Assembly: GCA_002713365.1 (NCBI GenBank)
Contig: PASR01000018.1
Location: 1-37,117, forward strand
Length of the DNA: 37,117 bases
Direction of reading: 5' to 3'
DNA from: Rhodospirillaceae bacterium
GTDB taxonomy: Bacteria; Pseudomonadota; Alphaproteobacteria; UBA6615
Shown here: piece after piece, positions 6,610 to 31,784 of the stretch
Position numbering within the stretch: position 1 is the stretch's first letter
How the letters are laid out: the number at the start of each line of letters is the position of its first letter
Translations under genes and position numbers: made by a program
The notes under the pieces: generated by a model
The model's database searches: none
Told to the model about the DNA's origin: nothing
Seen by the model: only the letters and a program-made list of their open reading frames with translations

Positions 6610-7371
6610 ATGAATTATTATAACCTTGCTGGGAAAACCTTACTAGTTACAGGTGCTGAAACAGGAATAGGCCGAGCAATTGCCATAAGGGCTGCAAAAG
6701 ATGGTGCTAATGTAACTGCGGCTGGTATTAATAATGAAGGACTTAAAGAGACTTTGGAGTTGGCTAGATCCGAGGGTGCAGAAGAACGTTTTCTAACACT
6801 AGAGGTTGATGTAAGGGATGCAGTCCAAGTCCAAAAAATGTTTGATGATACATTATTAAAGTTTTCTAGGTTAGATGCTACTGTAGCTAATGCTGGGGTT
6901 ATGATAGAACGAAGACCTTTTATAGAATCCACTCATGAGGAATGGCATCATGTATTATCAGTAAACCTTCACGGTACTTTTCATACGCTTCAGGCCGCCA
7001 CGCGAATATTAAGAAAACAAGGACAAGGTGGGGATTTATTAGTTACTACTTCCTCTAATGCTGTTCGGCCAGGGCCCCAGGCATCTTCTTACGTTGCTTC
7101 TAAGGGGGCGATTCATCAAATGGTCAGAGCACTTGCAGTTGAACTAGCCTCCGAAAAGATAAGGGTTAACGCTATAGTTCCAGGCCTTACTTTGACGCCA
7201 GGGACCCAGAATCGTCCTGGTCACATAGAAAGAGGAATAAAAAACGTACCGATGGGTGAGATAGTGATGCCCGAAGAAATAGCAGCATTAGTAGCATTTA
7301 CGCTTAGCGGAGAGGCGCCACATTTGACAGGGACAGACTTGAAAGTTGATTCAGGCCGCACTTCAGCTTAA
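6610..7371 (+). CDS. Short-chain dehydrogenase/reductase, second of a tandem pair
   Basis: 253 residues, with TGAETGIG at 14-21, ANAG near 93-96, and catalytic Ser148/149, Tyr161 and Lys165 (SYVASK). Start at 6610 is chosen over an in-frame upstream ATG at 6574 because AAGGAG sits just before it and the N-terminus then matches its neighbour. It is a paralogue of the SDR ending at 6599 and is almost certainly co-translated with it. Its 3' end overlaps the end of the convergent FAD monooxygenase gene by nine bases. Function is a probable NAD(P)-dependent alcohol/ketone oxidoreductase; the substrate is unknown. Confidence 0.92.
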   Translation: MNYYNLAGKTLLVTGAETGIGRAIAIRAAKDGANVTAAGINNEGLKETLELARSEGAEERFLTLEVDVRDAVQVQKMFDDTLLKFSRLDATVANAGVMIERRPFIESTHEEWHHVLSVNLHGTFHTLQAATRILRKQGQGGDLLVTTSSNAVRPGPQASSYVASKGAIHQMVRALAVELASEKIRVNAIVPGLTLTPGTQNRPGHIERGIKNVPMGEIVMPEEIAALVAFTLSGEAPHLTGTDLKVDSGRTSA

Positions 7372-8535
7372 CAACTTTATATTGTTGAATTTCTTGCAGC
7401 CAGTTGGGATGTGTCTGGCTGCTCTGCTATACTGTGAGGCCAGCCATGGGATTTTTCTCTCAGCATTTATGGCAAGAGGTTTCAACAATTTTGGTAGATA
7501 GATTGTAGTTCCATACAAACGAGTCCATTTTTGAGTGTGTTCTGTAAGAGGGCGTTCACGATTTTCCCAAATATTTAAAGCACTTTTTAAGTCTTTGGTT
7601 TCGTTTAATGCTACAGATAAGCCTAGACCATTCATCATTGCATGTCCTGCGCCCTGTCCTAAGTATGGAGGCATGGCGTGTGCTGCATCTCCAAGAATTG
7701 CTATTTTTCCTTCCGACCAACGTTTTAAACGAATTGTTTTAAATTGAGCCCATCTACTTTCATTCCATTGAGCGTTTTTTGCAAAACGCTCAATGAGCGG
7801 TTCCAGAGTGGGAAAAGACTTTTTCCAAGAGCTGACGTTTATAGGGGTGGTACGTCCAGCAGAATCATCTGCCATGCAGGTAAAAATTGCATAAATTTCA
7901 GATTTTGAGTTTGGGCAATACAAAATTCGTCGATTATCTGCCCAAGCTTCTACCATTGCGATGCCGTCAGAAGGGTTAGCAGGCATATCTTTGGGCAAGC
8001 TAGGAATTACCATACGCGTTCCTCCCTCTTTTTGAAAAACTTGGCTGTATGTTAAATCTAGACAATCACGAATGCGTGAATTAATGCCATCAGCAGCTAT
8101 TATTAGATCTGCTTGATGTACTTTTCCGTTAGCTAGAAATATTTCTCCTTTGGGATTAGCTTCAGTAACATTTGACCCAGTTAGAATTTCCACCCCGACA
8201 TTCTCAGCCCGCTGGGCAAGTAAAGAAATAATATGCCGTCGGCTTATCCGATACCTACCAAGTCCTGACTTAAGTCTTAATATTAATTTTCCGTTAGCGT
8301 TTACTGAATCTCGATAATCTATCTCTATGCCTCCCGCTAGAATAGGATTGAGAATACCTAAGGCATTAAAAATGCAGACCATATTATCTTGTATGGCTAT
8401 CCCATATCCTTCGGCGTTAAGCGAATTACGCCTTTCATGAACCCGGACAGTCCATCCCCTGTCAGCCAAACCTATTGCTGCTACCAATCCTCCAAAACCG
8501 GCACCAGAAATTTCAGCGTGGCGTTTTTCTAACAT
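7363..8535 (-). CDS. FAD-dependent aromatic-ring-type monooxygenase (PHBH family)
   Basis: A 390-residue group A flavoprotein monooxygenase. The FAD-binding GAGFGG is at 11-16, the second FAD/NAD(P)H contact AADGINS is near 147-153, and GDAAHAMPPYLGQG begins at 282. These enzymes (salicylate or p-hydroxybenzoate hydroxylase-like) use NAD(P)H and O2 to hydroxylate an activated ring. The gene stands alone on the - strand, convergent with the SDR pair (nine-base overlap) and divergent from the GST-like gene at 8872. The upstream region contains a -10-like TATACT (8618 to 8613 on the - strand) and a perfect inverted repeat at 8588-8611, a plausible regulator site. The exact substrate cannot be stated. 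Confidence 0.92.
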   Translation of the reverse strand: MLEKRHAEISGAGFGGLVAAIGLADRGWTVRVHERRNSLNAEGYGIAIQDNMVCIFNALGILNPILAGGIEIDYRDSVNANGKLILRLKSGLGRYRISRRHIISLLAQRAENVGVEILTGSNVTEANPKGEIFLANGKVHQADLIIAADGINSRIRDCLDLTYSQVFQKEGGTRMVIPSLPKDMPANPSDGIAMVEAWADNRRILYCPNSKSEIYAIFTCMADDSAGRTTPINVSSWKKSFPTLEPLIERFAKNAQWNESRWAQFKTIRLKRWSEGKIAILGDAAHAMPPYLGQGAGHAMMNGLGLSVALNETKDLKSALNIWENRERPLTEHTQKWTRLYGTTIYLPKLLKPLAINAERKIPWLASQYSRAARHIPTGCKKFNNIKLLS

Positions 8536-8587
8536 TTAAAATTCCTTCTAAATTCTAAAGAAAATGTAAATATAATTTTGAAATATA

Positions 8588-8611
8588 TTTAATAAGATCA
8601 CACTTATTAAA
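8588..8611. promoter_or_regulatory. Candidate operator: 9-base perfect inverted repeat
   Basis: TTTAATAAG and CTTATTAAA flank the six bases ATCACA, giving a perfect 24-base dyad. It lies directly downstream of the TATACT on the - strand, where the monooxygenase transcript would begin, which is where a repressor would bind. It is AT-rich, so part of the match could be chance, but nine paired bases on each side is longer than expected locally. A hairpin in the leader RNA is the alternative. Confidence 0.45.
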
Positions 8612-8841
8612 AAGTATAACCCCTAATGATATCAATTCTATTACTAGTTTATGGAACGGCGGCAGACTAATATGGATTTTAACATATGGTGTTGATTAAT
8701 TTATAATATATTTCTGATATCTGTTATCCAACAATAAATTTAGATACATAATTTTTGTTTTGGTTATATGATTAATTAATGAATTTAGCCCTTAAAATTT
8801 AGAAATTTGAGACTTAGTATGATCAGAATTATTGTTGAATA

Positions 8842-8850
8842 TGGTATACT
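8842..8850 (+). promoter_or_regulatory. Extended -10 promoter for the GST-like/crotonase/cupin genes
   Basis: TGGTATACT is an extended -10 (TGN plus TATACT), with no good -35. Transcription would start near 8857, so the message would begin almost at the ribosome binding site GGAGGAGGT (8858-8866), giving a leader of about 15 bases. That binding site is the strongest in the window and fixes the GTG start at 8872. Confidence 0.4.
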
Positions 8851-8871
8851 GATGGTTGGAGGAGGTAATCC

Positions 8872-9468
8872 GTGAAGCTCTATATGACTGAGATGTCAGG
8901 AAATTCTTTTAAGGTCCGTGTTTTGGCTGCAATATTAGGAGTTGATTATCAGAACATACGTATTGATTGGGAGAACAAAGAGCATAAATCGACGGACTTT
9001 CTCAAACTCAACCCTAGAGGTCAGGTGCCCGTAATGGAGATTGAGAGTAAAATCTTATGGGATTCTACTGCCCATCTAGTATACATAGCTAAGAAATATG
9101 GCGGTGATGAATGGTTTCCACCAGACCCTCTTGAGATAGCTGAGATAATGCAATGGATGTCATTTGCGCAAAATGAAGTACAATTTGGTTTACAGTGGGC
9201 GCGGGGGGTTACAATATATGGCCGTCGACCAGAAAGCTTTGCAGGCTATACAGCAGATGGTAAATTGGCATTAGAGGTATTAGAGAAACAACTCTCATTA
9301 ACGGGTAATTGGTTGGCTCTAGGACGTGTAACGCTTGCTGATATTTCTTGTTATCCGTATGTTAAACGAGCCCCGGAGGGCAATATAGCATTGGGACCTT
9401 ATCCTTCTGTGAGTAAGTGGCTTGAACGTTGTGAGTCATTGCCCGGCTGGATAGTTATGGATCCATAG
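8872..9468 (+). CDS. Glutathione S-transferase-like protein
   Basis: 198 residues with the GST layout. A thioredoxin-like N-terminal domain contains LNPRGQVPVMEIES (about 46-59), with the cis-proline in the Q-V-P turn, followed by LWDSTAHLVYIAKKY, where Ser66 takes the place of the usual glutathione-binding E-S/D-S pair. A helical C-terminal domain contains the conserved VTLADISCYPYV. GSTs in catabolic clusters conjugate or isomerise glutathione adducts, and the HCCA-isomerase domain encoded at 14723 makes a glutathione-dependent step plausible. The GTG start is chosen for the very strong GGAGGAGGT six bases upstream. It is followed by a crotonase after 53 bases. Confidence 0.88.
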   Translation: MKLYMTEMSGNSFKVRVLAAILGVDYQNIRIDWENKEHKSTDFLKLNPRGQVPVMEIESKILWDSTAHLVYIAKKYGGDEWFPPDPLEIAEIMQWMSFAQNEVQFGLQWARGVTIYGRRPESFAGYTADGKLALEVLEKQLSLTGNWLALGRVTLADISCYPYVKRAPEGNIALGPYPSVSKWLERCESLPGWIVMDP

Positions 9469-9521
9469 GATTTACATCTATCTCCGTATCTTGAGTTCCA
9501 CCTAATGGTGAAAGACAGAAT

Positions 9522-10292
9522 ATGAATGATAAATTATTAACGACTGTAGAACCTTGTGAAGGAGTTATGTTAGTAACCCTAAATAGGCCTAAAAAGCGCA
9601 ATGCGCTTTCTGCTGAACTAAAAATAGCTCTTACAGAAACTGCTAAAGCATTGTCTGAGCGCAATGATATTGGAGCAGTTATACTTACTGGAAACGGCAG
9701 TGGTTTTACCTCTGGGAACGATATATCTGAGGGTAATTCTTTCGCACAAGGGCTCTCCCTTCCCGAAGCAAGGCGGCATATTCGTTTAGGACTAGAAATG
9801 TGCAATGCATGGGAGGCAATGCCTCAACTTTCAATTGCAGCAATTGAAGGTTTTTGTGTTGGTGGTGGAATATCTCTAGCAGTTGCTTGTGACTTTCGTA
9901 TTTTACATAGTAATGCTTGGCTAAGAGCGCCGGAGGTCGAACTTGGCATAACGTTTTCTTGGGGAACACTTCCAAGATTAGTTCGATTGGTGGGGCCAAA
10001 TAGAGCTAAATTGATTGCAGCCCTAGCTAGAAAAATTGATGCCAAAACTGCTTTATCGTGGGGTCTTTGCGATAATGTAGTAGATGATGTAATGCAAGAG
10101 GCGTTAGATATGGCAAAAGAAATTTCAGCGAAACCAAGAGTGGCGCAGCAGATGATCAAAGAATCAATAAACCGATTAAAAGTTGGTTCCGATAACAGTA
10201 CACTTGAGCAGGACCAAGTATTACTTAATATGAGTGATCCAAATACTCATAATTTGCAGTCGAATATTTTAAAAGGTTTGGCAGAAAAATGA
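9522..10292 (+). CDS. Enoyl-CoA hydratase/isomerase family (crotonase)
   Basis: 256 residues. The CoA-binding start VTLNRPKKRNALS, the oxyanion-hole segments GFTSGNDISEG and GFCVGGGISLAVACDFRI, and LRAPEVELGI are all typical of crotonases. The Glu in APEVE matches the first catalytic Glu of rat enoyl-CoA hydratase. The second (Glu164 in the rat enzyme) appears to be a Leu in the segment KLIAALARKIDA, so simple water addition is uncertain and another crotonase reaction (isomerase, hydrolase or lyase) is possible. It overlaps the following cupin by four bases (ATGA), which indicates translational coupling. It fits a CoA-ester branch with the 3-hydroxyacyl-CoA dehydrogenase at 12560. Confidence 0.9.
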   Translation: MNDKLLTTVEPCEGVMLVTLNRPKKRNALSAELKIALTETAKALSERNDIGAVILTGNGSGFTSGNDISEGNSFAQGLSLPEARRHIRLGLEMCNAWEAMPQLSIAAIEGFCVGGGISLAVACDFRILHSNAWLRAPEVELGITFSWGTLPRLVRLVGPNRAKLIAALARKIDAKTALSWGLCDNVVDDVMQEALDMAKEISAKPRVAQQMIKESINRLKVGSDNSTLEQDQVLLNMSDPNTHNLQSNILKGLAEK

Positions 10293-10669
10293 TTAAAAAC
10301 GGGCAAATTAGATATCTACAAGATATAAAGAAATACACCCCCCCAGACCATACAGGGACAACCAACGCCCGATTGATTGAAAAAACGTTCTGTGAAAATT
10401 TTGAAATGATTCATGGAACTATAGAGCCTGGCTGCGGAGCACATAGGCACTCTCATGATGTTCATAGTCAGGTCTGTTATGTTCTTGAAGGTGAAATGGA
10501 TGTTAGTTTTGATGACAAAAGCCCCATAAGATGTGGTCCTGGAGCTGTCGTTGAAATACCCCCAAAAGTTGAGCACCTAATTATAAACTCTGGTGAAAAG
10601 CCCTTAAAGATTCTTGTTATATATAGCCCACCTTTGCCTCCTAGGGGAGACATCCCGATTGATTGTTAA
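10289..10669 (+). CDS. Small cupin-domain protein
   Basis: 126 residues with one cupin barrel. The first motif is GCGAHRHSHDVHSQVCYVLEGE, where the HRH/HDVH histidines are the likely metal ligands. The second motif is GPGAVVEIPPKVEHLIINSG, supplying the last His. Single-domain cupins of this size are often isomerases, dioxygenases or lactonase-like, but the family is too broad for a specific call. It is coupled to the upstream crotonase by a four-base overlap and ends 26 bases before the 3' end of the convergent GST-like gene. It is one of four cupin genes in the window, including the broken one at 35636. Confidence 0.85.
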   Translation: MIKNGQIRYLQDIKKYTPPDHTGTTNARLIEKTFCENFEMIHGTIEPGCGAHRHSHDVHSQVCYVLEGEMDVSFDDKSPIRCGPGAVVEIPPKVEHLIINSGEKPLKILVIYSPPLPPRGDIPIDC

Positions 10670-10695: not shown

Positions 10696-11334
10696 TTAGA
10701 CTAGTGTACTTGGCCGGCTATTTATATTTTCCAGCCACCTTCTAAGATTAGTCGCTTCTTCAGGAATTTCAAATTTTAGCCGGTCAGCAAAACTGATTGT
10801 ACAAAAGGCTGTAATATCTGCGATCGAAAAATTTTTACCAGCTATATATGTTCTATCGTCAAGAATTTTATTAACTACAGTAAAAAACCTCTTTACTCTT
10901 TCTCGTCCTCTATCAGCCAATTCAGGTATTTGCTCGTAATTATCGGGACCAGTTAATGCTCGGTTTTTAAGGCCTGGAGCAGAGTTTCTTAATGACTCAC
11001 CAACCGCCAGAAAGCCATCTATTTCCATCCTCCATTGCATGTCAGCAACCATAGCCTTTTCCTCTTTATCAACTCCCATTAACGGAGGGTTCGGATAAGC
11101 ATCTTCTAAATATCGACAGCATCCAGCAGTGCTGAAGAACCGTTCCCCTGTTTCAGTTTCGAGCACCGGAACAGTGCAATAAGGGTTAATATTTTTAAAC
11201 TCAGGACTTAATTGTTCGGCATCTCGCAGGTTCACCTCTATATTTTTAATAGAATTTGTTAATCCCTTTTCAGCAATAAACATTCTTACCTGTCGAGGAC
11301 TTGGCGCAGTTGTGCAGTCATAAAATATAATCAC
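10696..11334 (-). CDS. Glutathione S-transferase family protein
   Basis: 212 residues. The thioredoxin-like domain begins MIIFYDCTTAPSPRQVRMFI with a proline-containing active-site helix, and continues with INPYCTVPVLETETGERFFS (about 49-68), including the cis-Pro. The C-terminal helical domain has the IAGKNFSIADITAFCTI segment typical of GSTs. The usual acidic-Ser glutathione clamp is replaced by F-S-T. It resembles bacterial GSTs near MaiA-like or dehalogenase-type enzymes, but the substrate is not assignable. The gene stands alone on the - strand, convergent with the cupin at 10289 and divergent from the cupins at 11680. Confidence 0.88.
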   Translation of the reverse strand: MIIFYDCTTAPSPRQVRMFIAEKGLTNSIKNIEVNLRDAEQLSPEFKNINPYCTVPVLETETGERFFSTAGCCRYLEDAYPNPPLMGVDKEEKAMVADMQWRMEIDGFLAVGESLRNSAPGLKNRALTGPDNYEQIPELADRGRERVKRFFTVVNKILDDRTYIAGKNFSIADITAFCTISFADRLKFEIPEEATNLRRWLENINSRPSTLV

Positions 11335-11679: not shown

Positions 11680-12099
11680 ATGACAGGAGATAATACAAAG
11701 CAAACCAAGACAGAAGGTGCGTATTCTGCGGGTGAAGGAAAATATTTTTTTGAGGTTTCTAATTTAACCGGTTTCAAAGCCGGCCCTAATTATGCTGATA
11801 CATACGGTTCAGTGGTTGAGGGGGAATTAACGCAAGTGGGTATTATGACAATTCCTGCGGGCATGTCATCTGATCCTCATACCCATCCAAATGAGCAATG
11901 GGTTTATTTGTTAAGGGGGCGTTTAAGTGCTGTTGTAGACGGCCAAGAAAAACAAGTTTCCCCAGGTGAACTGATGTATATTCCAGCAAATACAGTTCAC
12001 AGTGTAGATGTTTTGCCCGGTGAAGATGCCCACTTCTTTACTTGTAAGGATTTACGCCATGGTATTGCGGGTACGCCAATAGGTCCTGAACGAAAATAA
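11680..12099 (+). CDS. Cupin-domain protein, first of a near-identical tandem pair
   Basis: 139 residues, single cupin domain. The motif DPHTHPNEQWVYLLRGRL gives likely metal ligands His67, His69 and Glu72, and PGELMYIPANTVH gives His107. From residue 37 to the end it differs from the next gene's product at only six of 103 positions, while residues 1-36 match at about 16. Toward the 3' end the DNA is identical for about 80 bases, third codon positions included. Binding of a divalent metal is expected; the reaction is unknown. The pair begins a + strand train leading into a 3-hydroxyacyl-CoA dehydrogenase and an Old Yellow Enzyme. Confidence 0.9.
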   Translation: MTGDNTKQTKTEGAYSAGEGKYFFEVSNLTGFKAGPNYADTYGSVVEGELTQVGIMTIPAGMSSDPHTHPNEQWVYLLRGRLSAVVDGQEKQVSPGELMYIPANTVHSVDVLPGEDAHFFTCKDLRHGIAGTPIGPERK

Positions 12100-12131
12100 T
12101 TTAAAATAAACCTATGTAATGAGGATTAAAG

Positions 12132-12551
12132 ATGTCTAAAAAATCTACAGAAGAAACCAAGACCGATGGCGCTTATAAAGGAGGAGACGGAACTTATTTT
12201 TATGACGTGGGAAAGCTATCATATGTAAATGCTGGTCAAAATTATGCTGATACATACGGCTCAGTAGTTGAAGGAGAATTAACGCAAGTGGGCATTATGA
12301 CAATTCCAGAGGGCATGTCGTCTGATCCTCATACCCATCCTAATGAGCAATGGATTTATTTGTTAAAGGGGCGTTTAAGTGCTGTTGTTGATGGCCAAGA
12401 AAAACAAGTTTCTCCAGGTGAACTGATTTATATTCCAGCAAATATAGTTCACAATGTAGATGTTTTGCCCGGTGAAGATGCCCACTTCTTTACTTGTAAG
12501 GATTTACGCCATGGTATTGCGGGTACGCCAATAGGCCCTGAACGAAAGTAG
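12132..12551 (+). CDS. Cupin-domain protein, second of a near-identical tandem pair
   Basis: 139 residues, the same length and cupin layout as the protein encoded at 11680, with all likely metal ligands kept (His67, His69, Glu72, His107). The six changes after residue 36 are A60E, V75I, R79K, M99I, T105I and S108N, mostly conservative. It starts 33 bases after the first copy with GAGG just upstream, and ends eight bases before the GTG of the dehydrogenase gene. A recent duplication alone would not leave the N-terminal third so divergent, so gene conversion is likely. The copies may form heteromers or have divided roles. Confidence 0.9.
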   Translation: MSKKSTEETKTDGAYKGGDGTYFYDVGKLSYVNAGQNYADTYGSVVEGELTQVGIMTIPEGMSSDPHTHPNEQWIYLLKGRLSAVVDGQEKQVSPGELIYIPANIVHNVDVLPGEDAHFFTCKDLRHGIAGTPIGPERK

Positions 12552-12559: not shown

Positions 12560-13498
12560 GTGAATAAGAAATTACATGAAACTGTAGCAGTCATCGGCTC
12601 CGGTACGATAGGTGCATCATGGGCAAGTTATTTTTTGGCCCAGGGTTGTAGCGTTCGAATTTGGGATCCAGACTCTAATTTTTATGAACGAACAAAACTT
12701 TTTATCGATAACGTTTGGCCAATTATGAAAGAGCTTGGTATTGCTGAATTGGCTTCGCCAGATAATGCTATTTATTGTAAAAGTATGGCTGAAGCAATTT
12801 CAGGGTCTACATTTGTACAAGAGAGTGGACCAGAGAACGCGGAATTAAAAACAAAACTAATTGCAGACATTGATAGTATTTTATCACCAGATATTGTGAT
12901 ATCTTCAAGCTCGACCGCTCTGCCAACTAGCGAATTTCAGGGTGGGGCGAAGCATCCACAGCGTGTGGTTTTAGGGCATCCGTTTAATCCCCCGCATTTA
13001 ATGCCTTTGGTTGAAGTGGGGGGAGGAAAAAAGACTGAGGTATGGGCCGTGGATAGAGCGATTGATTTCTATCAAAAGATAGGTAAATCCCCGGTAAGGT
13101 TACGCGCTGAAATACCTGGCCATCTGGCTAATCGCTTACAAGCAGCAGTTTATCGCGAAGCAGTTTATCTGGTGTCTGAGGGGTATGCTTCTGTTTCTGA
13201 CATAGATATGGCGATGGCTCAGGGACCAGGGCTAAGGTGGGCCTTTATGGGGCCACACATGACTTATCATTTGGGAGGAGGATCTGGCGGAATATCTAAT
13301 TATTTTGATATTCTGGGTTCTAGCCAAGAGAGACGTTGGGCAGCCCTCGGTGAGCCCAAGCTTACAGATGAGGTAAAAGAAAAAATTATAGAGGGCGTTA
13401 AAGAGGAAGCAGGGGGACGTTCTTTAGAAATGTTGGCTGCTGATCGAGATGAGATTTTAGTAAACCTTTTGAAGGTATTACAAAAAAAATCTCTATAA
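12560..13498 (+). CDS. 3-hydroxyacyl-CoA dehydrogenase family (carnitine/gulonate dehydrogenase-like)
   Basis: 312 residues. The NAD-binding GSGTIG is at 13-18, with Asp36/Asp38 after the second strand (RIWDPDSN) favouring NAD. The catalytic-region signature GHPFNPPHLMPLVEV begins at 139, with the catalytic His in HPFNPP, and PGHLANRLQAA starts the C-terminal domain. A single-domain protein of about 310 residues with GHPFNPPHL looks more like carnitine 3-dehydrogenase or lambda-crystallin/L-gulonate dehydrogenase than a fatty-acid FadB. The substrate is therefore a small beta-hydroxy acid or its CoA ester. GTG is taken as the start because it gives the Rossmann strand at the usual distance. 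Confidence 0.9.
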   Translation: MNKKLHETVAVIGSGTIGASWASYFLAQGCSVRIWDPDSNFYERTKLFIDNVWPIMKELGIAELASPDNAIYCKSMAEAISGSTFVQESGPENAELKTKLIADIDSILSPDIVISSSSTALPTSEFQGGAKHPQRVVLGHPFNPPHLMPLVEVGGGKKTEVWAVDRAIDFYQKIGKSPVRLRAEIPGHLANRLQAAVYREAVYLVSEGYASVSDIDMAMAQGPGLRWAFMGPHMTYHLGGGSGGISNYFDILGSSQERRWAALGEPKLTDEVKEKIIEGVKEEAGGRSLEMLAADRDEILVNLLKVLQKKSL

Positions 13499-13531: not shown

Positions 13532-14686
13532 GTGAGCGAAACCAATGATTCTAAACCACTTTTATTTACCCCTCTTACATTGGGTGAAGTAACACTTAAA
13601 AATAGAGTGGTAATATCTCCAATGTGTCAATATTCCGCGACCAATGGTTTGGCGAATGATTGGCATAGTATACACCTCGGACAGTATGCGCTGGGAGGAT
13701 CTGGTTTGGTGTTTTGTGAAGCTGCTGCTGTTGAAGAGCGAGGAAGGATTACTCATGGTGATTTGGGCATATGGTCAGCGGAACATGCTACTGCATTAAA
13801 ACCTATTGTATCTTTTATATCTGCTCAGGGCTCTGTCCCGGGGATACAAATAGCCCATGCTGGTCGTAAAGCAAGTATGCAACGCCCTTGGTTTGGAAAT
13901 GGCCCATTGGAAGAGAGCGACTTTAGGCGTGGTGAAAAGCCTTGGGATATAGTGGCTCCTAGTCCTGAACCAATTAATGAAAAATCCTTAATGCCCCATG
14001 AGCTATCTATTAGAGAGATAAAGGAAATACAGGAGGCGTTTGCGAACGCTACCAGACATGCAAATACAGCAGGGTTTGAGGTTCTTGAAATTCATTCGGC
14101 TCATGGATACCTTTCTCATACTTTTTTATCTCCGCTGTCTAATCTCAGGAATGATATATATGGTGGAGACTTAAACGGAAGAATGAGGTTCACTCTTGAA
14201 ACGGTAGAAAAGGTTCGCGCTGTATGGCCGGCCGGCAAACCACTTTTTGTTCGTATATCTACGATTGATGGAGCGGATGGTGGTTGGACAATGGAGGATT
14301 CGATTGCTTTAACTAATGAGATGAAAATTAGAGGAGTTGATGTTATTGATTGTTCGTCAGGGGGTATTGCGGGAACTGTGACCGCTTCTCGGGAACCTTT
14401 GCCTCTAGGGTTTCGGGTTTCTTTATCAGATGAGTTGCGCCGTAATAATAATATTTTGACTATGACTCATGGGCTTATTTTACACGCTAATCAAGCTGAG
14501 AAAATATTGCAGTCCGGCGACGCCGATCTGATAGGAATAGCTCGTGAGGCCCTATATAATCCTTATTGGGCTCGTCATGCAGCGAATGAGTTGGACTTTG
14601 ATGAAAATTACTCTGATTGGCCAGAACAATATGGTTGGTGGTTGACAAGGCGTGAAGCTCACTTGAAAAACATAGGTGTTCGTTAA
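13532..14686 (+). CDS. NADH:flavin oxidoreductase, Old Yellow Enzyme family (YqjM-like)
   Basis: 384 residues forming an FMN TIM barrel. PMCQYSA (30-36) carries the Cys that marks the YqjM/XenA class, QIAHAGRKA (about 107-115) binds flavin, HSAH (188-191) supplies the His pair that holds the substrate carbonyl, and SPLSNLRNDIYGG follows. GTG at 13532 is preceded by AAAGGAGA. These enzymes reduce activated C=C bonds of enones or nitro groups with NAD(P)H. It follows the 3-hydroxyacyl dehydrogenase by 33 bases and precedes the HCCA-isomerase fusion by 36, a tight operon. It may reduce an unsaturated ring or side-chain intermediate. Confidence 0.93.
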   Translation: MSETNDSKPLLFTPLTLGEVTLKNRVVISPMCQYSATNGLANDWHSIHLGQYALGGSGLVFCEAAAVEERGRITHGDLGIWSAEHATALKPIVSFISAQGSVPGIQIAHAGRKASMQRPWFGNGPLEESDFRRGEKPWDIVAPSPEPINEKSLMPHELSIREIKEIQEAFANATRHANTAGFEVLEIHSAHGYLSHTFLSPLSNLRNDIYGGDLNGRMRFTLETVEKVRAVWPAGKPLFVRISTIDGADGGWTMEDSIALTNEMKIRGVDVIDCSSGGIAGTVTASREPLPLGFRVSLSDELRRNNNILTMTHGLILHANQAEKILQSGDADLIGIAREALYNPYWARHAANELDFDENYSDWPEQYGWWLTRREAHLKNIGVR

Positions 14687-14722: not shown

Positions 14723-15739
14723 ATGCCATCCCCTATTCGTTTCTATTTTGATTTTGTTTCCGCTTATTCGTATGTCGCGATGAATCGGATAGATAAAGTG
14801 GCTGCAAGATATGGCCGTGAAGTTGACTGGAAGGTGGTTGTTTTACCAGATATATTAGACCATCATAATTCTATATCACCTCGAGAACAGCCAGCTAAAT
14901 TCGCCCATAACCAGAAAGATTTTCCTAGGTTATGTAAGATGCATGGACTGCCAGTTACTTTTCCACCAGAGGTTCCTCCTTATGGTGCAACCCTGCATAG
15001 ATTAGTATTTCTTCGTTTAAAAAGAACAAACATTGAGTTAGCTAAAAATTTTAGTCTAGCTGTTGGTAATCGTTACTTTGGCATGGGTAAGGAGGTTCGG
15101 ACCGCTCGTCAGTTGGCCTCTGCCTGCAGTGATTACGGTGTTCCAATCGGTATTGATGAGATAAAGGCAGCAGAAAATGATAGAACGGCGCAAAAGTCTT
15201 TATCTTCAGGCTTTAAACGTGCAATCGCCGATGGAATGTTTGGTGCTCCCTTTATGGTGTGTGATGGAGAAAAATACTGGGGGGCAGACCGTCTCGACCA
15301 CTTAGAATATAACTTAAAGAGAAAAATAAAAGTACCCCGTGGATTCGAGCCATTTCCCTTACTAAGTAATTTCACTGAACGTAATGGTCCTTTATTTCAT
15401 AGAGTGAGGAATGGTAAAATAACCTTTGCATTTAGAGTCGACGAGAGACACCTAAACCCTCGAGAAGTTGTTCATGGTGGCTGGTTAACTAGTTTTGTTG
15501 ACGTATCTATGGCAAAAACAGCAATGTTTCAAATCGGCCGTGATGGTGTTGCCCCTACTATCCATCTAGAAACCGATTTTATTGGTGCTATAAAACCCGG
15601 CCAATGGGTTGAATGTCAGGCTAATTTAGTAAATAGGACACGTTCTATGAATTTTGTTGAGGGCGTGGTAACTGCAGATGGAATACCTGTAGCGCGCTGT
15701 TCAGCAATTTTTAAAATTCCGTATAATTTACAAACATAA
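14723..15739 (+). CDS. Fusion: 2-hydroxychromene-2-carboxylate isomerase/DsbA domain plus hotdog thioesterase domain
   Basis: 338 residues in one uninterrupted frame. Residues about 1-200 match HCCA isomerase/kappa-GST proteins: IRFYFDFVSAYSYVAM at the N-terminus, with Ser13 in the glutathione-activating position, and GMFGAPFMVCDGEKYWGADR at 171-190. Residues about 215-338 form a hotdog domain of the PaaI thioesterase type: VVHGGWLTSFVDVSMAK at 249-265 with the H-G-G turn and Asp260, then HLETDFIGAIKPGQWVE. HCCA isomerase interconverts a chromene carboxylate and its open enone, a glutathione-dependent step in naphthalene-type pathways. A hotdog domain would hydrolyse a CoA or other thioester. 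I do not know this pairing as a standard architecture. Confidence 0.87.
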   Translation: MPSPIRFYFDFVSAYSYVAMNRIDKVAARYGREVDWKVVVLPDILDHHNSISPREQPAKFAHNQKDFPRLCKMHGLPVTFPPEVPPYGATLHRLVFLRLKRTNIELAKNFSLAVGNRYFGMGKEVRTARQLASACSDYGVPIGIDEIKAAENDRTAQKSLSSGFKRAIADGMFGAPFMVCDGEKYWGADRLDHLEYNLKRKIKVPRGFEPFPLLSNFTERNGPLFHRVRNGKITFAFRVDERHLNPREVVHGGWLTSFVDVSMAKTAMFQIGRDGVAPTIHLETDFIGAIKPGQWVECQANLVNRTRSMNFVEGVVTADGIPVARCSAIFKIPYNLQT

Positions 15740-15835: not shown

Positions 15836-17122
15836 ATGACAGAGGCGTTGAAAAAGATTATCTGGTTTATACAGCAATCAAAATTACTTCTTATTATGGT
15901 TATGGTTCCTTTTTTGGGCTTAGCTTTTATGCTAAGCCAATTTTTAAGATCAGTGCCGGCTGTCATAGCCCCAGATTTAAGGAGTGAATTGAATTTAACA
16001 GCAATAGAACTTAGTTCTTTACCGGCGGCTTTATTTTTAGGTTCTGCTTTGATGCAACTACCTGTCGGCGTTCTTTTAGATAGGTTTGGCCCTAGAAGAA
16101 CAATAGCAATATTTCTGTTAATATCTGCAGTGGGCACCACATTGATATCTCGAGCAGAGAGCTCTTCAGTTCTAGCATTAGCGTTATTTGTTGCTGGTTG
16201 TGGCATTGCACCGGTTTATATGGGTTTGATTGTTTTGCTTTCTCGGTGGGTTCCTCGTGATCGTTTGGCTACAGCAAGTTCCATAGCAGTAGCTGTAAGT
16301 GGAGCTGGTTTATTACTATCTGCTGCACCATTTGCCTGGGCGAGTGTAGTTATCGGGTGGAGAGAGACGCTTGGTTTTGTGGGGCTTGGAGCAGCTTTGC
16401 TATCGGCTATAGTTTGGTTAGTATCGCGAGATCGGCCACCTGGAGAAATGCCGGAGAAAGTTGTACCCGAAACTTTGCGGCAAACAATTCTGGGTTTAAA
16501 ATATGTTTTAAGAGACAAGAGGCTCTATGCCCTTGCATCAGTGGCCTCAATCTCAGTTGGTTCTTTTTTAACCACTCGTGCCCTTTGGACAGGCCCCTAT
16601 CTGAATGATGTTTTTGGTCTTGATATGATAAGTCGCGGTAATGTGATATTGGCATTATCTGTAGCTTGGCTCGTTTCAGCTCTATTTTATGGGCCACTTG
16701 ATCGTTTGTTTGATACACGGCGTGGCGTTGTTAGCGTAGGAGCAATAAGTATGGCTTTATCCTTTGTATTACTCGCCGTAAATAACAGCGCATCTGTTGG
16801 GGTTGTTACAGTCTTACTTGTTTTACTTGGCTTATCATCCTCATTTACTGCACTAATTTTTGCACATGCCCGAGCTCTTTTTCCTGACACACACACAGGT
16901 AGGGCTATTACTGCAATTAACCTTTTTATTTGGAGTGGAGTATTTTTAATACAGGTTATTACTGGTTTTATAGTAAATGCTTTTCCGGCTGACTCTCAGG
17001 GCCATAGTCCAATAGAAGCCTATCAAGCAATGTTTATAACTTTGGCCATTGCATTAATTTTTGCTGTTTTTGTGTATAGGCGGATTGAAGATGTACCACC
17101 CTCTAAAGACATTGCTCATTAG
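15836..17122 (+). CDS. MFS transporter
   Basis: 428 residues with about twelve hydrophobic segments. The helix 2-3 loop LLDRFGPRRTIAI is the major facilitator motif A, and a second-half loop GPLDRLFDTRRG mirrors it. The ends are cytoplasmic and basic. The start at 15836 has no clear Shine-Dalgarno sequence, and a later Met could be used. It ends five bases from the 3' end of the convergent SDR gene. It closes the + strand train of the left block, so it may carry the substrate or a product of that pathway. Nothing in the sequence names the ligand. It is not a close copy of the MFS protein at 3903. Confidence 0.9.
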   Translation: MTEALKKIIWFIQQSKLLLIMVMVPFLGLAFMLSQFLRSVPAVIAPDLRSELNLTAIELSSLPAALFLGSALMQLPVGVLLDRFGPRRTIAIFLLISAVGTTLISRAESSSVLALALFVAGCGIAPVYMGLIVLLSRWVPRDRLATASSIAVAVSGAGLLLSAAPFAWASVVIGWRETLGFVGLGAALLSAIVWLVSRDRPPGEMPEKVVPETLRQTILGLKYVLRDKRLYALASVASISVGSFLTTRALWTGPYLNDVFGLDMISRGNVILALSVAWLVSALFYGPLDRLFDTRRGVVSVGAISMALSFVLLAVNNSASVGVVTVLLVLLGLSSSFTALIFAHARALFPDTHTGRAITAINLFIWSGVFLIQVITGFIVNAFPADSQGHSPIEAYQAMFITLAIALIFAVFVYRRIEDVPPSKDIAH

Positions 17123-17126: not shown

Positions 17127-17888
17127 TTAATTTTCGAGACCCGCTCTTAAACTTATATCGTTAAATTGTATCTGAACATGTTTTCCAACTAGGTCATCTG
17201 GAGCGTTACGTGCCAACCAGGATAATACCTTTGCTGGTCTTTCGGGCGCCTGACCATTGGTGGTAGTTAATGCTGAAGCCTTAAATTCTTTGTTGGAATA
17301 CATATCACGTACCATATCTGTATCTGTGAATCCTGGAGAGAATGCATAAATTTTAATTTTTGTACCTTCTAGATCAATATTTAGACACTGCGTCATTGAT
17401 ATAAGTGCAGCTTTAGAAGAACAATATGCGGCATAGTAACGGCCAGGAATAAAAGCGCGGGCGCTAGTTAGATTAATAATTGTTCCGCAATCGCTTTCTA
17501 TCATTGAAGGAAGTACAGCATGGATCATATTATAGGGGCCCATAACGTTAATTTTATGAACATCTTGGAAAACATCTGGGGTCATATCCTCCACACTTCC
17601 CATTTTTCCTGAACCGGCGTTATTTATTAAAACGTCGATATGACCATGTTGTTCGATTATTGTGTCCACAAGATTTTTGCTTGCCTTGGCATCTGACACG
17701 TCAAAACCATATGTCTCAACTTTAGCCCCTAAAGACTCTGCTGAAATTTTAGTTTCATGGATAGCTTCCGCAGATTGAGCACATAAAATCAACTTTGGTT
17801 TATCTGCAGCTATAAGTTTTGATGAGGCTGCACCTATTCCTCTGCTCGCTCCAGTAACTACAACAACTTTGTCTTTCAAGTTAGTCAT
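17127..17888 (-). CDS. Short-chain dehydrogenase/reductase
   Basis: 253 residues. VVTGASRGIG near 10-19 binds NAD(P), NNAGSG follows near 89-94, and the catalytic triad is in TSARAF and YAAYCSSKAAL (Tyr and Lys four apart). The C-terminus is FNDISLRAGLEN. It is a classical SDR and is not a member of the tandem pair at 5841-7371. The gene is separated from the upstream YccA-type gene by a clear terminator at 17941-17973, so it must use its own promoter in about 50 AT-rich bases. It is convergent with the MFS gene. The substrate is unknown. Confidence 0.92.
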   Translation of the reverse strand: MTNLKDKVVVVTGASRGIGAASSKLIAADKPKLILCAQSAEAIHETKISAESLGAKVETYGFDVSDAKASKNLVDTIIEQHGHIDVLINNAGSGKMGSVEDMTPDVFQDVHKINVMGPYNMIHAVLPSMIESDCGTIINLTSARAFIPGRYYAAYCSSKAALISMTQCLNIDLEGTKIKIYAFSPGFTDTDMVRDMYSNKEFKASALTTTNGQAPERPAKVLSWLARNAPDDLVGKHVQIQFNDISLRAGLEN

Positions 17889-19782: not shown

Positions 19783-20259
19783 TCATATGGGTGTAGACAA
19801 CATGTGTGGTATGGACCAATTTTCGACAATTACAGTTTTAGATAAAAATTTAGGAACGTTTTTATTAAAAAACACCTCATCTATGTAGGTTCCAAAACTG
19901 TAGAGGCTGCCATTACCCTCATTGTCTGTTTGGAATAATGCATAATTTGCCTCCACCATCATGATATTCGCGTCTACTTCCGCCTTGATACACACATTAC
20001 TTATTAAATGTTTGTCAGTGTGAATGCTATATTCATTAGCTTGACGCAGAGATACGATTCTATCGCGGAGCATGTTTTTGTTTTCACAAAGCATTAGTGT
20101 TACTGGTAGCCCAAGGGTTACGTTTTGTTTGGGCGTAATCTTATATACACATTTTTCAACGAACAGATCTAACCATTCTTCTAGTTTATCATTATCCAGA
20201 CAAGAACCGTAAGCAGAATACAGATCCTCGATAGCGAAACGTTTTTCTACTTCTATCAA
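19783..20259 (-). CDS. Aromatic-ring-hydroxylating dioxygenase, beta subunit
   Basis: 158 residues with the SnoaL-like alpha-beta barrel of ring-hydroxylating oxygenase small subunits. The first helix region reads FAIEDLYSAYGSCLDNDKLE, followed by EWLDLFVEKCVYKI, and later VEANYALFQTDNEG. These subunits build the alpha3beta3 hexamer and do not carry the catalytic metal. The start overlaps the end of the alpha-subunit gene by four bases, which shows the pair is co-translated. It is the last gene of the leftward train that begins at 29622. No ferredoxin or reductase gene follows it. Confidence 0.88.
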   Translation of the reverse strand: MIEVEKRFAIEDLYSAYGSCLDNDKLEEWLDLFVEKCVYKITPKQNVTLGLPVTLMLCENKNMLRDRIVSLRQANEYSIHTDKHLISNVCIKAEVDANIMMVEANYALFQTDNEGNGSLYSFGTYIDEVFFNKNVPKFLSKTVIVENWSIPHMLSTPI

Positions 20260-21512
20260 CGAAAGGCTCCATCTGGTTCAATTCCCATTAACTCAGCATA
20301 ATATGACCAGAAACCTCTTATTGGTACGTCATTAACTCGGTAGGCTCTATCAGAAATTTCACCTTTCCCCCCCACCTCTATAACTGTTGATGAATCCCGT
20401 TCCTCTGAAAAACTGGCCTTGTGAGCGATCTCAATAGCTTCAGCGTCTTCCATTGAGACCAGGCCGCCTGGGCCAAATAAATTTAATTGGCGTAACCTAT
20501 GGTTGGTCATATCTGTATCGTCGTCTGTGTAACCAAAATAAGTCCATATCAAGTCAAAAGCGTTAACTCCTTTTGGTTGAATCTGTCTGGTCGCCAGAGA
20601 ATTATTTAATTGTTGAAATGATGCGTTTGGGAACATTGTGGAAATAGCTAAATTGCGGTCATCTGTATACTCTTGACGAAACTCCAGTAAACTGGGGTCT
20701 AGCAACTTTAACTTATCACTATTAATTTCGTGTCCGCCATAAGCTTCCTTAGCATCCGAATCATTATCAGAGGAGGCGTGGGCATAAGTAAGGTTATGCC
20801 GGTGTCGTTCGTCCATCTCAACCCCTCCCTTCTGAGTTGCTCTATCTAAGCCAAAGGTTACTAAGAATTCATGCAGAAGACTTGCGTGGTAGGTGTCTCT
20901 TAAATTCTCTAAATAGAGCTTCCAATTCCCATGTATTCTTTGGCGTTGATAACCAAGAATCTTTATTGGTTTACAAAATAAGCGGGTGATATGACCTTGC
21001 ATCATGGGGCCTAGATAATCTTCTAAATCTTCGCTGTCTTCAGAGAAAGAACCAAATATAATGCCTTGGTAGCAAGCCACACGTAGTTTACGAAGTCCGT
21101 GATCTGCTTTATCAAAATCATCATCCATCCCCCCCATACCCTGTATTCCTCGTTGGAAAGGAATGCCAATTAAATTGCCAGTTAAGTCATAACTCCATCT
21201 GTGATAAATACAGGTGTGAACTTTAGTATTTCCCTGGGCATGTCGACACACTGCAGCTCCACGATGCGCACAACGATTGACAACGGCATGTATTTTACCA
21301 TCTTTGTTTCGGTTTATGAGTATTGGGGTATCACCTACCCAAGTAGTTTTAAAGTCACCTACCTCAGGTATTTCTGCTTCAAGGCAAAGATAGGACCAAG
21401 TTGTTCCCCTAAATATTAGTTTTTGTTCATGATTGTAAAGGTCAGTATCATGATACAACCAATAGGGAACTCGAGAGTAATCGCGTCGCTGCCATTCCAC
21501 ATTTAGTGACAT
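20256..21512 (-). CDS. Rieske aromatic-ring-hydroxylating oxygenase, alpha subunit
   Basis: 418 residues. The Rieske cluster is bound by Cys81/His83 and Cys101/His104 (NRCAHRGAA and CIYHRWSYD). The mononuclear iron site is ENLRDTYHASLLH, with Asp206 as the bridging acid and His209/His214 as ligands. The N-terminus (YWLYHDTDLYNHEQKLIFRG) and Rieske surroundings look closest to the anthranilate dioxygenase/salicylate 5-hydroxylase branch, from memory of those proteins only. The enzyme would add oxygen to an aromatic or similar ring using electrons from a reductase. None is encoded nearby. AAGGATAACTG supports the ATG. It lies 58 bases after the ABC ATPase gene. Confidence 0.93.
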   Translation of the reverse strand: MSLNVEWQRRDYSRVPYWLYHDTDLYNHEQKLIFRGTTWSYLCLEAEIPEVGDFKTTWVGDTPILINRNKDGKIHAVVNRCAHRGAAVCRHAQGNTKVHTCIYHRWSYDLTGNLIGIPFQRGIQGMGGMDDDFDKADHGLRKLRVACYQGIIFGSFSEDSEDLEDYLGPMMQGHITRLFCKPIKILGYQRQRIHGNWKLYLENLRDTYHASLLHEFLVTFGLDRATQKGGVEMDERHRHNLTYAHASSDNDSDAKEAYGGHEINSDKLKLLDPSLLEFRQEYTDDRNLAISTMFPNASFQQLNNSLATRQIQPKGVNAFDLIWTYFGYTDDDTDMTNHRLRQLNLFGPGGLVSMEDAEAIEIAHKASFSEERDSSTVIEVGGKGEISDRAYRVNDVPIRGFWSYYAELMGIEPDGAFR

Positions 21513-21570: not shown

Positions 21571-22698
21571 CTATTCTATCAAAACTGATATATCAGTAGG
21601 CCTCCAGGATAATGTAACTGTATCACCTTCTGATATTGACTGGGCAGAATGTTTGTTAGGGGCATCGGCAGTTAGTTCCGTGCCATCTTCTGTTATATTT
21701 TTAAACCTAAACATCCCCCCTAAATACATTTTTTCGGTCACCAAAACTGAAATACTAGTGCCGTTTAATTGTTCAGTTGTATTTTCTACACTGACATCCT
21801 CAAACCGTAATGCAATCGAAACTGGCTGTCCTTCAGTTAGCCCGTCTGGGGTAATACATCGAAAAACTAAATCTAGACTAGAAACTAAACATTCACCATT
21901 CTCTTCGATTTTTGTTACATTTCCATCAAAAACATTTGTGTGCCCAACAAAGTCAGCTACAAAACGCGTTTTTGGTGTCTCGTAAATGTCTTCAGGTGTT
22001 CCAACTTGAAGAATATGTCCTTGGTCCATAACAGCAATTCTATCTGACATTGCCATTGCTTCACCTTGATCATGCGTTACAAAAATAAAAGTGTTTCCAA
22101 GCGATTTATGTAACCTTCTTAATTCGTCTTGCATTTGAAGTCTTAATTGAAGATCAAGTGCGCCCAATGGTTCATCAAGTAATAGAACAGAAGGATTGTT
22201 GATAAGGGCACGTGCCATTGCTACCCTTTGTTTTTGTCCTCCACTTAGTTGATCAATTTTGCGTTGGCCGTAACCTTCAAGTCGGACCAGTTCAAGTGAT
22301 TCTTGTACTTTTTGATCAATGGTATCAGATTGAAAGCTCTTCATTTTTAGACCGAAGGCAACATTTTCTATTACGTTCATATGCGGAAATAGTGCCAAAT
22401 GCTGAAAAATCATGTTAGTGCTGCGTGCGTAAGGTGGTTCCCCAATAGTATCTGTGCCGTCAATTAATATCTGGCCCTCGCTAGGGGATTCAAAACCACC
22501 AATCATTCTTAACAATGTTGTTTTTCCGCAACCTGAAGGGCCAAGAAGAGAAAAGAATTCACCTTGTTGTATATTTAAAGAGACGTTGTCTAAGGCAGCA
22601 ACCTCGCCAAACCATTTTGATACGTTACGAATTTCGACAGTTGGTTCTGACTTTGAGGAGGTTTTACCTTGTATCTTATTATCTATATCAATCGACAA
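21571..22698 (-). CDS. ABC transporter ATP-binding protein, spermidine/putrescine type
   Basis: 375 residues. Walker A GPSGCGKT is at 53-60, the signature LSGGQKQRVAMARA starts at 151, Walker B VLLLDEP is at 171-177 and the switch His is at 209 (FVTHD). A C-terminal TOBE region follows, as in PotA. It would energise the two permeases encoded at 23987 and 24845. The start is a TTG supported by AAAGGA seven to twelve bases upstream. The gene comes after the binding-protein gene, separated by a strong hairpin (22737-22765). The substrate may be a polyamine, amino-acid derivative or other small organic molecule; the neighbours favour the compound degraded here. Confidence 0.93.
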   Translation of the reverse strand: MSIDIDNKIQGKTSSKSEPTVEIRNVSKWFGEVAALDNVSLNIQQGEFFSLLGPSGCGKTTLLRMIGGFESPSEGQILIDGTDTIGEPPYARSTNMIFQHLALFPHMNVIENVAFGLKMKSFQSDTIDQKVQESLELVRLEGYGQRKIDQLSGGQKQRVAMARALINNPSVLLLDEPLGALDLQLRLQMQDELRRLHKSLGNTFIFVTHDQGEAMAMSDRIAVMDQGHILQVGTPEDIYETPKTRFVADFVGHTNVFDGNVTKIEENGECLVSSLDLVFRCITPDGLTEGQPVSIALRFEDVSVENTTEQLNGTSISVLVTEKMYLGGMFRFKNITEDGTELTADAPNKHSAQSISEGDTVTLSWRPTDISVLIE

Positions 22699-22736
22699 AT
22701 TTTTTCCTTTATCACACTATTAAGATTTATCAGCAA

Positions 22737-22765
22737 AGTAGTCGCAACATAAAGTTGCGACTACT
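22737..22765 (-). other. Strong intra-operon hairpin after the binding-protein gene
   Basis: AGTAGTCGCAAC pairs perfectly with GTTGCGACTACT around a five-base loop. It sits 16 bases beyond the binding-protein stop and 38 bases before the ATPase start. Only three T's follow on the - strand, so it is a weak terminator at best. Hairpins at this place in ABC operons often protect the binding-protein message or dampen expression of what follows. Confidence 0.7.
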
Positions 22766-22781
22766 AGCTTTGAGAGTGGAA

Positions 22782-23918
22782 TTAAGCCGTTTTAATTATA
22801 TTCCAAGATTCAACCCATTTATCCATATTAACAGGGAAACTTAGCCCATAAAGCTTGACACCCCGATCAACCAAATCAAGGCCTAGCTTACTTTTTTGTT
22901 CTTTACTGAAAGTAGCAGCAACCTCGGCAGAAGTTGATGGATAATTAGTTACTTCTGTGAGTTTTATACCAAAATCTTTTGATAACATTGCATTTATTAC
23001 TGCTTCTGCATTGGCAGCATTAGGGGAATCTTTAGGCACAAATCCAGATTGATGCCAGAATAACAGACCGTCACTTGGCCAATTATTCACAACATTAAGA
23101 CCCTTTCCTTGTAGAACTCTTCGCATTGCAATCCAGCCGTACATGGCATCAACTTCGCCTGATGAAATGAGGTTTACCGCTTCACCAAACTTAGTCCACA
23201 TTGTTCTGACATTCTTCTTTTTATCAATTAAATAAGCTGTCATATCCTTAAGATCGCTGGCATCCATGCTAACGGGGTCCGGATGCCCTCTGTGAAGAGC
23301 GGCAGCCATAATCATACCGTGCGCATCGTCCCTCCAGGCTATACGGCCTTTATATTTATCGGAGAATAAAACCCCCCAAGATTGAGTGAATGGATCATCA
23401 GTAGGAATTTTATCGGCGTTGTAAATAACTGAATCATAGCCCCAGACTATCGGAACCATGTAAGTTTTTCCGCCTCTAGTCACTATGTCTTTTTTAAATA
23501 GAGGACTGAGTTTCTGGGCATTAGGAATTTTGCTCATGTCTAGAGCATGTAATCGCTCGTCACCATCTTTAGCACCCAAAGCTGGACCTTTAACAAAATT
23601 GGTGAGACTAATCATCATATCATAATTTTTTGTCCCGCCTGGTGCCATCAGTTTAGCGAGTGTGTCAGTCGGAGAAACGTATGGAGCATTTTCTACCTTT
23701 ACACCTGACATGCTTTCTACAATAGGACGCCCCTGCTTCGGCATGAAAACACCAGGCATGATTGCAACCACTTTTTTGGACTGCGCTAGTGCTGTTGACA
23801 TAGGAAGTGCACTTACAGCAAGTCCTCCAAGGCTCGCCACACCCGCTTTTTTAATGAAAGCTCTCCGATCTGATTGCTTTTCTTCAATAAAATTTGATTT
23901 ATTAGTTTTATTTTTCAT
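22782..23918 (-). CDS. ABC transporter substrate-binding protein, PotD-like, Tat-exported
   Basis: 378 residues. The leader SDRRAFIKKAGVASLGG carries the twin arginine at 18-19, followed by a hydrophobic stretch and an A-L-A cleavage site near residue 45, so export by the Tat route is likely. The mature part has the extracellular solute-binding fold: KNYDMMISL, KTYMVPIVWGYDSVIYNADK, WGVLFSDKYKGRIAWRDD and GEVDAMYGWIAMRRVL. These are typical of spermidine/putrescine-type (PotD) proteins. GGAGGGAGGATTT upstream is a strong ribosome binding site, in keeping with high expression. The ligand is unknown. Confidence 0.92.
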   Translation of the reverse strand: MKNKTNKSNFIEEKQSDRRAFIKKAGVASLGGLAVSALPMSTALAQSKKVVAIMPGVFMPKQGRPIVESMSGVKVENAPYVSPTDTLAKLMAPGGTKNYDMMISLTNFVKGPALGAKDGDERLHALDMSKIPNAQKLSPLFKKDIVTRGGKTYMVPIVWGYDSVIYNADKIPTDDPFTQSWGVLFSDKYKGRIAWRDDAHGMIMAAALHRGHPDPVSMDASDLKDMTAYLIDKKKNVRTMWTKFGEAVNLISSGEVDAMYGWIAMRRVLQGKGLNVVNNWPSDGLLFWHQSGFVPKDSPNAANAEAVINAMLSKDFGIKLTEVTNYPSTSAEVAATFSKEQKSKLGLDLVDRGVKLYGLSFPVNMDKWVESWNIIKTA

Positions 23919-23986
23919 TATAAATCCTCCCTCCAGAGAGTGTTAAGTTTATTAAGCACATAAATTTCTTCATCTCATTTGCTGAA

Positions 23987-24841
23987 CTACGTTTTTGTAC
24001 TGCGTGAAGCACGATGCATAAAAACAAACCCAACAAAAGAACTAAAGATTGAAATCACGATGATTAAAACTGCCATCGCGGGTAACTGAGGGGCTAATTC
24101 ATCAACTATTAAACCCCAAAACTGAACCGGTATAGTACGATCATAACCGGTAACAAAAATAGTTCTTATGAATTCATCGAATGATAGACTAAACGAAAAT
24201 AAAGCTGTGGCAATGATGCCTGGTCTAATAATTGGAAATACGACACGAAAAAAAATTTGCAGAGGTTTTGCACCAAGATCCATCGCAGCTTCTTCTAGTG
24301 CTCGGTCAAATCCGTGTAAGCGCGGGAAAAGTGTTAGAAATGCGAACGGTAATACCCAGTTAACATGTGCAACTAGTACAGTTGTCCAGAGAGATGATCG
24401 CACGCCAGAAAAACCAAAGAAGATTAATAAAACTATACCACCTATAATTCCTGGTATAATTATTGGTACGAGAATAAGGTACAAAACTATCGATTTTCCT
24501 CGAAAATCATGTCGAAAGCCCATGGCTAAGGATAATGCTAGAATTGTTGCTATAGTTGCTGAAAGAAAACCGACTCCCAGACTATTTAGAAGGGAATCTA
24601 GGAGTTCAGGACTAGAGAAAACCACCTCATACCAGCGGATAGTAAAGCCACGAAACGGAAACCCAACTATCTCTGAGTCGTTAAATGATAGTAAAACGAT
24701 CATTAATAACGGGCCGTAAAGAAATGCGTAAAATGCCCCAGCATATATCCATAAAGCTGTTTTGTATCCTCTATATGGTTCTTTAGTTTTGAGGCTAGCT
24801 CGTCCAAGGGACTTTTTGTTATCTAGATTTTTATAAGTCAT
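23987..24841 (-). CDS. ABC transporter permease, PotC-like
   Basis: 284 residues with six hydrophobic helices after a polar N-terminus. The EAA loop that docks the ATPase reads EEAAMDLGAKPLQIFFRVVFPIIRPGI (about 187-213). It is the second of two permeases of the polyamine-type importer. Its start is three bases from the stop of the PotB-like gene, so they are translationally linked. A 68-base gap separates it from the binding-protein gene, which has its own strong ribosome binding site. Confidence 0.93.
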   Translation of the reverse strand: MTYKNLDNKKSLGRASLKTKEPYRGYKTALWIYAGAFYAFLYGPLLMIVLLSFNDSEIVGFPFRGFTIRWYEVVFSSPELLDSLLNSLGVGFLSATIATILALSLAMGFRHDFRGKSIVLYLILVPIIIPGIIGGIVLLIFFGFSGVRSSLWTTVLVAHVNWVLPFAFLTLFPRLHGFDRALEEAAMDLGAKPLQIFFRVVFPIIRPGIIATALFSFSLSFDEFIRTIFVTGYDRTIPVQFWGLIVDELAPQLPAMAVLIIVISIFSSFVGFVFMHRASRSTKT

Positions 24842-24844
24842 TTT

Positions 24845-27492: not shown

Positions 27493-27495
27493 AGC

Positions 27496-29622: not shown

Positions 29623-29861
29623 TTTAATTCCTAACATTTATGCTTATACAATTAACTATTTAACCAAAGCGAGATCGAGCGGTAACTACCAGTAAAATTA
29701 TAAAAATAAGAAATATATATTAGTAAACATTATCAAAAAAAGTAAAGGCTCCTAAAGCGTATTCCCTCTATATGGTATAAATATCTTTTCCTGAAGAACA
29801 TTGACAGTGTTAAGAAAGAGGATTTACCGTTAGTTTCTAAATATTGTTACATATTAAGGTC
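29623..29861. promoter_or_regulatory. Divergent promoter region of the two right-hand trains
   Basis: About 240 AT-rich bases between the leftward hydantoinase train and the rightward RraA train. Rightward candidates are an extended -10, TGGTATAAA at 29773-29781, and a consensus -35 TTGACA at 29801-29806 with only a poor -10 partner. Leftward there is a perfect TATAAT at 29697-29702 (- strand) with a weak -35. No long dyad or RNA gene was found. Shared control of both trains from here is likely. Confidence 0.4.
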
Positions 29862-31760: not shown

Positions 31761-31784
31761 CCCTTGTTAATATTAGGAATAACT

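Follow-up and report, generated by a model that had tools for sequence, protein, structure and literature searches.

A two-domain protein conserved across an order

A single gene in the window (the whole stretch of DNA that was analysed, 37,117 nucleotides of contig PASR01000018.1 from a Rhodospirillaceae bacterium) joins an HCCA-isomerase/kappa-GST-type domain to a hotdog domain, and this join is real and conserved within the order to which the genome belongs. The gene lies at 14723-15739 on the + strand and, as an earlier note made from the sequence had stated, is one uninterrupted frame that translates into 338 aa without a stop. The unbroken frame was recovered from 19 of the 24 genomes of the order that were examined, all from one family, with 62-82% identity; the other five, some of which are incomplete assemblies, gave no match. 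The order is largely marine and little known, being represented here mainly by metagenome-assembled genomes, and four of the carriers are named in the genome_contigs collection as alphaproteobacterial metagenome-assembled genomes, the names including MarineAlpha12_Bin1 and that of an ALOHA isolate. Mean pairwise identity was 76% in the first domain and 72% in the second, and candidate active-site residues of both are invariant in the 19 proteins. The low dN/dS of each half (about 0.025-0.19 in the 12 closest pairs) indicates that both are under purifying selection. Given the number of genomes, the invariant residues and the selection on both halves, the join is not an assembly error.

Both domain assignments were confirmed by profile searches, with scores above the curated Pfam cut-offs. 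DSBA (PF01323) matched residues 5-198 (14735-15316, + strand) with 94.5 bits against a cut-off of 25.6, and the hotdog profile 4HBT (PF03061) was found in the second half, as had been predicted, at residues 249-320 with 44.7 bits against 20.6; each of the 19 fusion proteins from the order matched both families. The hotdog domain had been placed from about residue 215, which did not hold. Stand-alone hotdog relatives begin to align at fusion residues 199-204 and the Caulobacter protein 2hbo at 200-203, so the unit starts near 203 and runs to about 333 (15329-15721, + strand). The best stand-alone isomerase-type relatives, for their part, mostly stop at residues 195-202, so the two domains are both complete and have hardly any linker between them. 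That the hotdog half might also be translated on its own from an internal start was considered and rejected, since residues 181-245 offer a single in-frame start codon, a GTG at 228, which lies within the domain.

The isomerase-type domain

An AlphaFold model was good only for most of residues 1-200, and together with the PF01323 match it identifies a DsbA-type thioredoxin fold with a helical insertion over about 200 residues. The best structural match was kappa GST (1yzx; Z 23.9, rmsd 2.2, 200 aligned), followed by HCCA isomerase (2imd; Z 21.5, rmsd 3.5, 200 aligned), with DsbA and FrnE proteins ranking below both. In sequence the domain resembles the HCCA-isomerase-type chains more closely than kappa GST: phmmer searches of solved structures with the first half led to 3fz5 and 2imd, and a family profile returned the same matches as phmmer with better leading scores and added kappa GST.

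Ser13 (codon 14759-14761, + strand), which the earlier note had singled out, is indeed in place, aligning with a Ser both in Pseudomonas HCCA isomerase (2imd, residue 11) and in rat kappa GST (1r4w, residue 16). It is followed by Ala14, whereas both 2imd and 1r4w have Pro at the equivalent place, making the pair Ser-Ala in the fusion and Ser-Pro in 2imd. Neither a CXXC motif nor a Cys is present at the active site, where residues 11-16 read FVSAYS, which sets the domain apart from the DsbA disulfide oxidoreductases. In this family glutathione is contacted by the cis-Pro loop, the Asp of WG-DR and Asn53. The cis-Pro loop FGAP (173-176) and the motif WGADR (186-190) are invariant in the 19 proteins; the counterpart of kappa-GST Asn53, at fusion position 50, is variable in the order. 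HCCA isomerase 2imd and Rhodobacter 3fz5 thus share with the fusion the fold and its length of about 200 residues, a catalytic-type Ser, an FG-P loop and a WG-DR motif, but they are stand-alone proteins of about 200 aa, and the fusion locus has no naphthalene-type operon. The kappa GSTs (1yzx, 1r4w) have the Ser at the same place and provide the top structural match, but are without a hotdog domain, are less similar in sequence and have an Asn53 that is not conserved in the fusion.

That kappa GSTs match the model somewhat better than HCCA isomerase does, and that the window contains two further GST genes (8872-9468 and 10696-11334), would suit a true glutathione transferase. Such a domain would add glutathione to a reactive intermediate, or transfer an acyl group to glutathione, leaving the hotdog domain to hydrolyse the glutathione (or CoA) thioester; the protein would be a detoxifying or salvage enzyme and not an isomerase. 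We regard this as unlikely, as the sequence is nearer to 3fz5 and 2imd and the other GSTs of the window lie outside the order-wide core. With no Pro behind Ser13 and no conserved counterpart of Asn53, the domain may bind glutathione differently. This would fit a pathway in which the hotdog domain alone is catalytic and the isomerase-type domain serves to present the substrate, as a scaffold for binding or dimerisation. With Ser13, the cis-Pro loop and WGADR all invariant, and dN/dS as low in this half as in the hotdog half, a scaffold seems somewhat less probable still than a transferase. An isomerase-type domain acting with glutathione is the reading preferred here, and a glutathione synthase is encoded in the genome from which the window comes.

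The hotdog domain

The HGG turn at residues 251-253 and Asp260 are where they had been claimed to be, and both are invariant in the 19 fusion proteins. So is Asn245, six residues before the HGG histidine, at a position that is occupied by a catalytic Asn in THEM2-type hotdog thioesterases. Searched with phmmer against solved structures, the second half led to 2hbo, whose alignment spans the whole hotdog domain, and to other hotdog proteins. AlphaFold gave this half a mean pLDDT below 50 in two runs, which is attributed to an input limited to near-identical sequences, and the hotdog assignment accordingly rests on the profiles.

The label of a PaaI-type domain, used in the earlier note, stands at the superfamily level. 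Membership of the hotdog superfamily and the HGG and Asp support it, but the strict PaaI cut-offs were missed: NCBIfam TIGR02286 (PaaI, hydroxyphenylacetyl-CoA thioesterase equivalog) scored 24.3 bits against 118.9 and TIGR00369 27.5 against 36.6. The PaaI-type thioesterases (Caulobacter 2hbo and the PaaI proteins of E. coli and Thermus) have in common with the fusion an HGG-x6-D motif and an Asn six residues before HGG; they are stand-alone proteins, and the fusion falls clearly below the PaaI equivalog cut-off. An HGG motif with a catalytic Asp has been described for hotdog thioesterases (PMC516016, PMC2698920), and 2hbo, reported to be a dimer, has the PaaI active-site motif including the catalytic Asp (PMC2698920). 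As the nearest solved relative is a reported dimer, a dimeric two-domain enzyme is plausible.

Occurrence outside the order and stand-alone relatives

The earlier note did not know the fusion as a common architecture, and its rarity was borne out. No fusion was detected in 385 genomes of the class, 398 of the phylum and 369 of the class of genome G624, samples that overlap to a total of roughly 1,000 genomes; the limits were E-values of 1e-20 to 1e-34, at which a fusion built from very distant relatives would be missed, and the search of the 369 genomes was without a positive control of its own. The best matches outside the order were single-domain proteins with up to 43% identity. Plasmids yielded no fusion either, a Cupriavidus plasmid match reaching residue 287 proving to be isomerase-type only. 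A match extending to residue 276 (L005) and the longer-looking G206/L084 were likewise stand-alone isomerase-type proteins of about 200-210 aa.

An HCCA-isomerase/hotdog fusion was not found in the open-access part of the literature. Hotdog domains fused to pathway partners have already been described, in a text that makes no mention of thioredoxin, DsbA or glutathione (Dillon and Bateman 2004, PMC516016). The precedent is the 3HCDH-hotdog fusion of Agrobacterium, of the carnitine 3-dehydrogenase type (Dillon and Bateman 2004, PMC516016), whose dehydrogenase family has a relative in the window operon. In Agrobacterium the hotdog is joined to the dehydrogenase, whereas in the window it is joined to the isomerase-type domain and the dehydrogenase is separate. 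Both domains belong to known superfamilies, and it is their pairing that appears to be new.

In a survey of neighbours, of the kind that the earlier note had proposed, the nearest 3HCDH, isomerase-type and hotdog genes outside the order do not lie together, with the exceptions of two loci, L103 and L131. At L131 an isomerase-type gene is beside a 3HCDH gene. At L103 (1017-2094) separate hotdog and isomerase-type genes are convergent with overlapping ends and adjoin a fumarylacetoacetate-hydrolase-family gene; the pair is a possible unfused counterpart of the fusion. Tandem pairs of stand-alone isomerase-type genes were also seen in two other alphaproteobacterial genomes (L149 4693-5894 and L152 6200-7425). 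Of 43 stand-alone isomerase-type genes, 15 had an acyl-CoA dehydrogenase gene no more than 1.5 kb away, as against none of 32 control loci, the controls being hotdog and 3HCDH loci (Fisher p 8e-5). Part of the isomerase family thus sits among acyl-CoA enzymes, a setting in which fusion to a thioesterase makes sense.

Operon context

In the window the fusion is the last of a run of genes on the + strand separated by gaps of 8 to 36 bp: two tandem cupins (11680-12099 and 12132-12551), a 3HCDH-family dehydrogenase of lambda-crystallin/carnitine-dehydrogenase-like type (12560-13498) and an old-yellow-enzyme-type reductase (OYE; class III, YqjM/XenA-like; 13532-14686). The second cupin, the dehydrogenase and the reductase are conserved partners. 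Across the order the set is cupin, 3HCDH, OYE, in some genomes an IclR regulator, and the fusion last, and the cupin either adjoins the run or lies up to about 7 kb upstream. 3HCDH, OYE and fusion genes are neighbours in 18 of the 19 carriers, the contig of the remaining one (G022) being broken. The 19 genomes with the fusion are also those with 3HCDH and cupin, all three genes being missing from the other five, and OYE follows this pattern apart from a more distant homologue in G003; since the genomes belong to one order, shared ancestry confounds this co-occurrence. Downstream of the fusion are an MFS transporter (15836-17122, + strand), common to the nearest genera only, and a convergent SDR oxidoreductase (17127-17888, - strand), which most genomes of the order keep next to the operon. 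The SDR and Bax-inhibitor-type block that is shared beyond the fusion in most of them suggests that the region is vertically inherited.

A chance join, in which two domains with unrelated substrates owe their continued association solely to inheritance of a single fusion, would agree with confinement to one order, which makes a single event possible, and with the rarity with which the two families are neighbours elsewhere. Neither a re-split fusion nor a decayed single domain was seen among genomes of the order, and the fusion gene keeps the same operon partners, so we consider this the least probable explanation and improbable in itself.

The OYE is close to thermophilic reductases and xenobiotic reductase A and also resembles the C-terminal half of PRK08255. 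The nearest relatives of the 3HCDH partner are lambda-crystallin, which acts on a free hydroxy acid, and a pyridoxine-pathway dehydrogenase, which acts on a free acid. The free hydroxy acid used by lambda-crystallin counts against the function proposed below, as does an order-wide core that lacks a CoA ligase, an acyl-CoA dehydrogenase and an enoyl-CoA hydratase. A salicylyl-/aminobenzoyl-CoA-type pathway was rejected despite the likeness to PRK08255, the core having neither monooxygenase nor ligase. Literature searches on that pathway, and on carnitine dehydrogenase and betainyl-CoA, gave nothing useful, and no relatives of the cupin were found on plasmids.

Several other features of the window were observed. 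The tandem cupins (11680-12551) share 82% protein identity and are found in all three genomes of the window's genus, to which the duplication is restricted, the gene being single elsewhere in the order. A block at 7363-10669 (FAD monooxygenase, GST, enoyl-CoA hydratase, cupin) is shared whole only with two genomes of the window's genus, with single genes of it occurring elsewhere in the order. An anthranilate-dioxygenase-like Rieske oxygenase pair (19783-21512; AndAc/AndAd models, below cut-off) adjoins a spermidine/putrescine-type ABC transporter (21571-25765), next to which are hydantoinase/oxoprolinase-like A and B genes (25762-29637). A large aconitase-family gene and its small LeuD-like partner (30501-32300) belong to a second catabolic-looking cluster.

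Proposed function and significance

We propose, with about an even chance of being right, that a gene fusion in the ancestry of the order produced a bifunctional catabolic enzyme in which glutathione-assisted isomerisation is coupled to thioester hydrolysis within one pathway. The N-terminal domain would bind glutathione on the thioredoxin fold next to Ser13, and the glutathione thiolate would serve, in the manner of HCCA isomerase, as a transient nucleophile in the isomerisation of an unsaturated oxo-compound. The hotdog domain would hydrolyse a thioester, most likely of CoA, built on the same carbon skeleton, the water being positioned by Asp260 and Asn245. The earlier suggestion that these are two steps of one pathway finds indirect support in the conservation of the fusion, its operon context and the co-occurrence of its partners. 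The note's alternative, with one domain holding the acyl group on behalf of the other, drew no separate support from these data.

The class III OYE, together with a dehydrogenase nearest to the lambda-crystallin and pyridoxine-pathway enzymes, suggests that the operon's substrate has an unsaturated oxo- or hydroxy-acid skeleton. On that skeleton the OYE would reduce a conjugated C=C and the 3HCDH-family enzyme would oxidise a 3-hydroxy acid. A more speculative extension, which we consider doubtful, is an undescribed catabolic pathway of the order. In it, one protein would isomerise an unsaturated acyl thioester with the help of glutathione and release it as the free acid, before OYE and then 3HCDH (at the 3-position) act on it.

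Two enzyme families, both with many stand-alone members that mostly lack a known substrate, are brought together in the fusion, which suggests a role on, or next to, acyl thioesters for proteins that carry the HCCA-isomerase annotation. For an order known mainly from metagenome-assembled genomes, it also provides one small operon that is amenable to testing.
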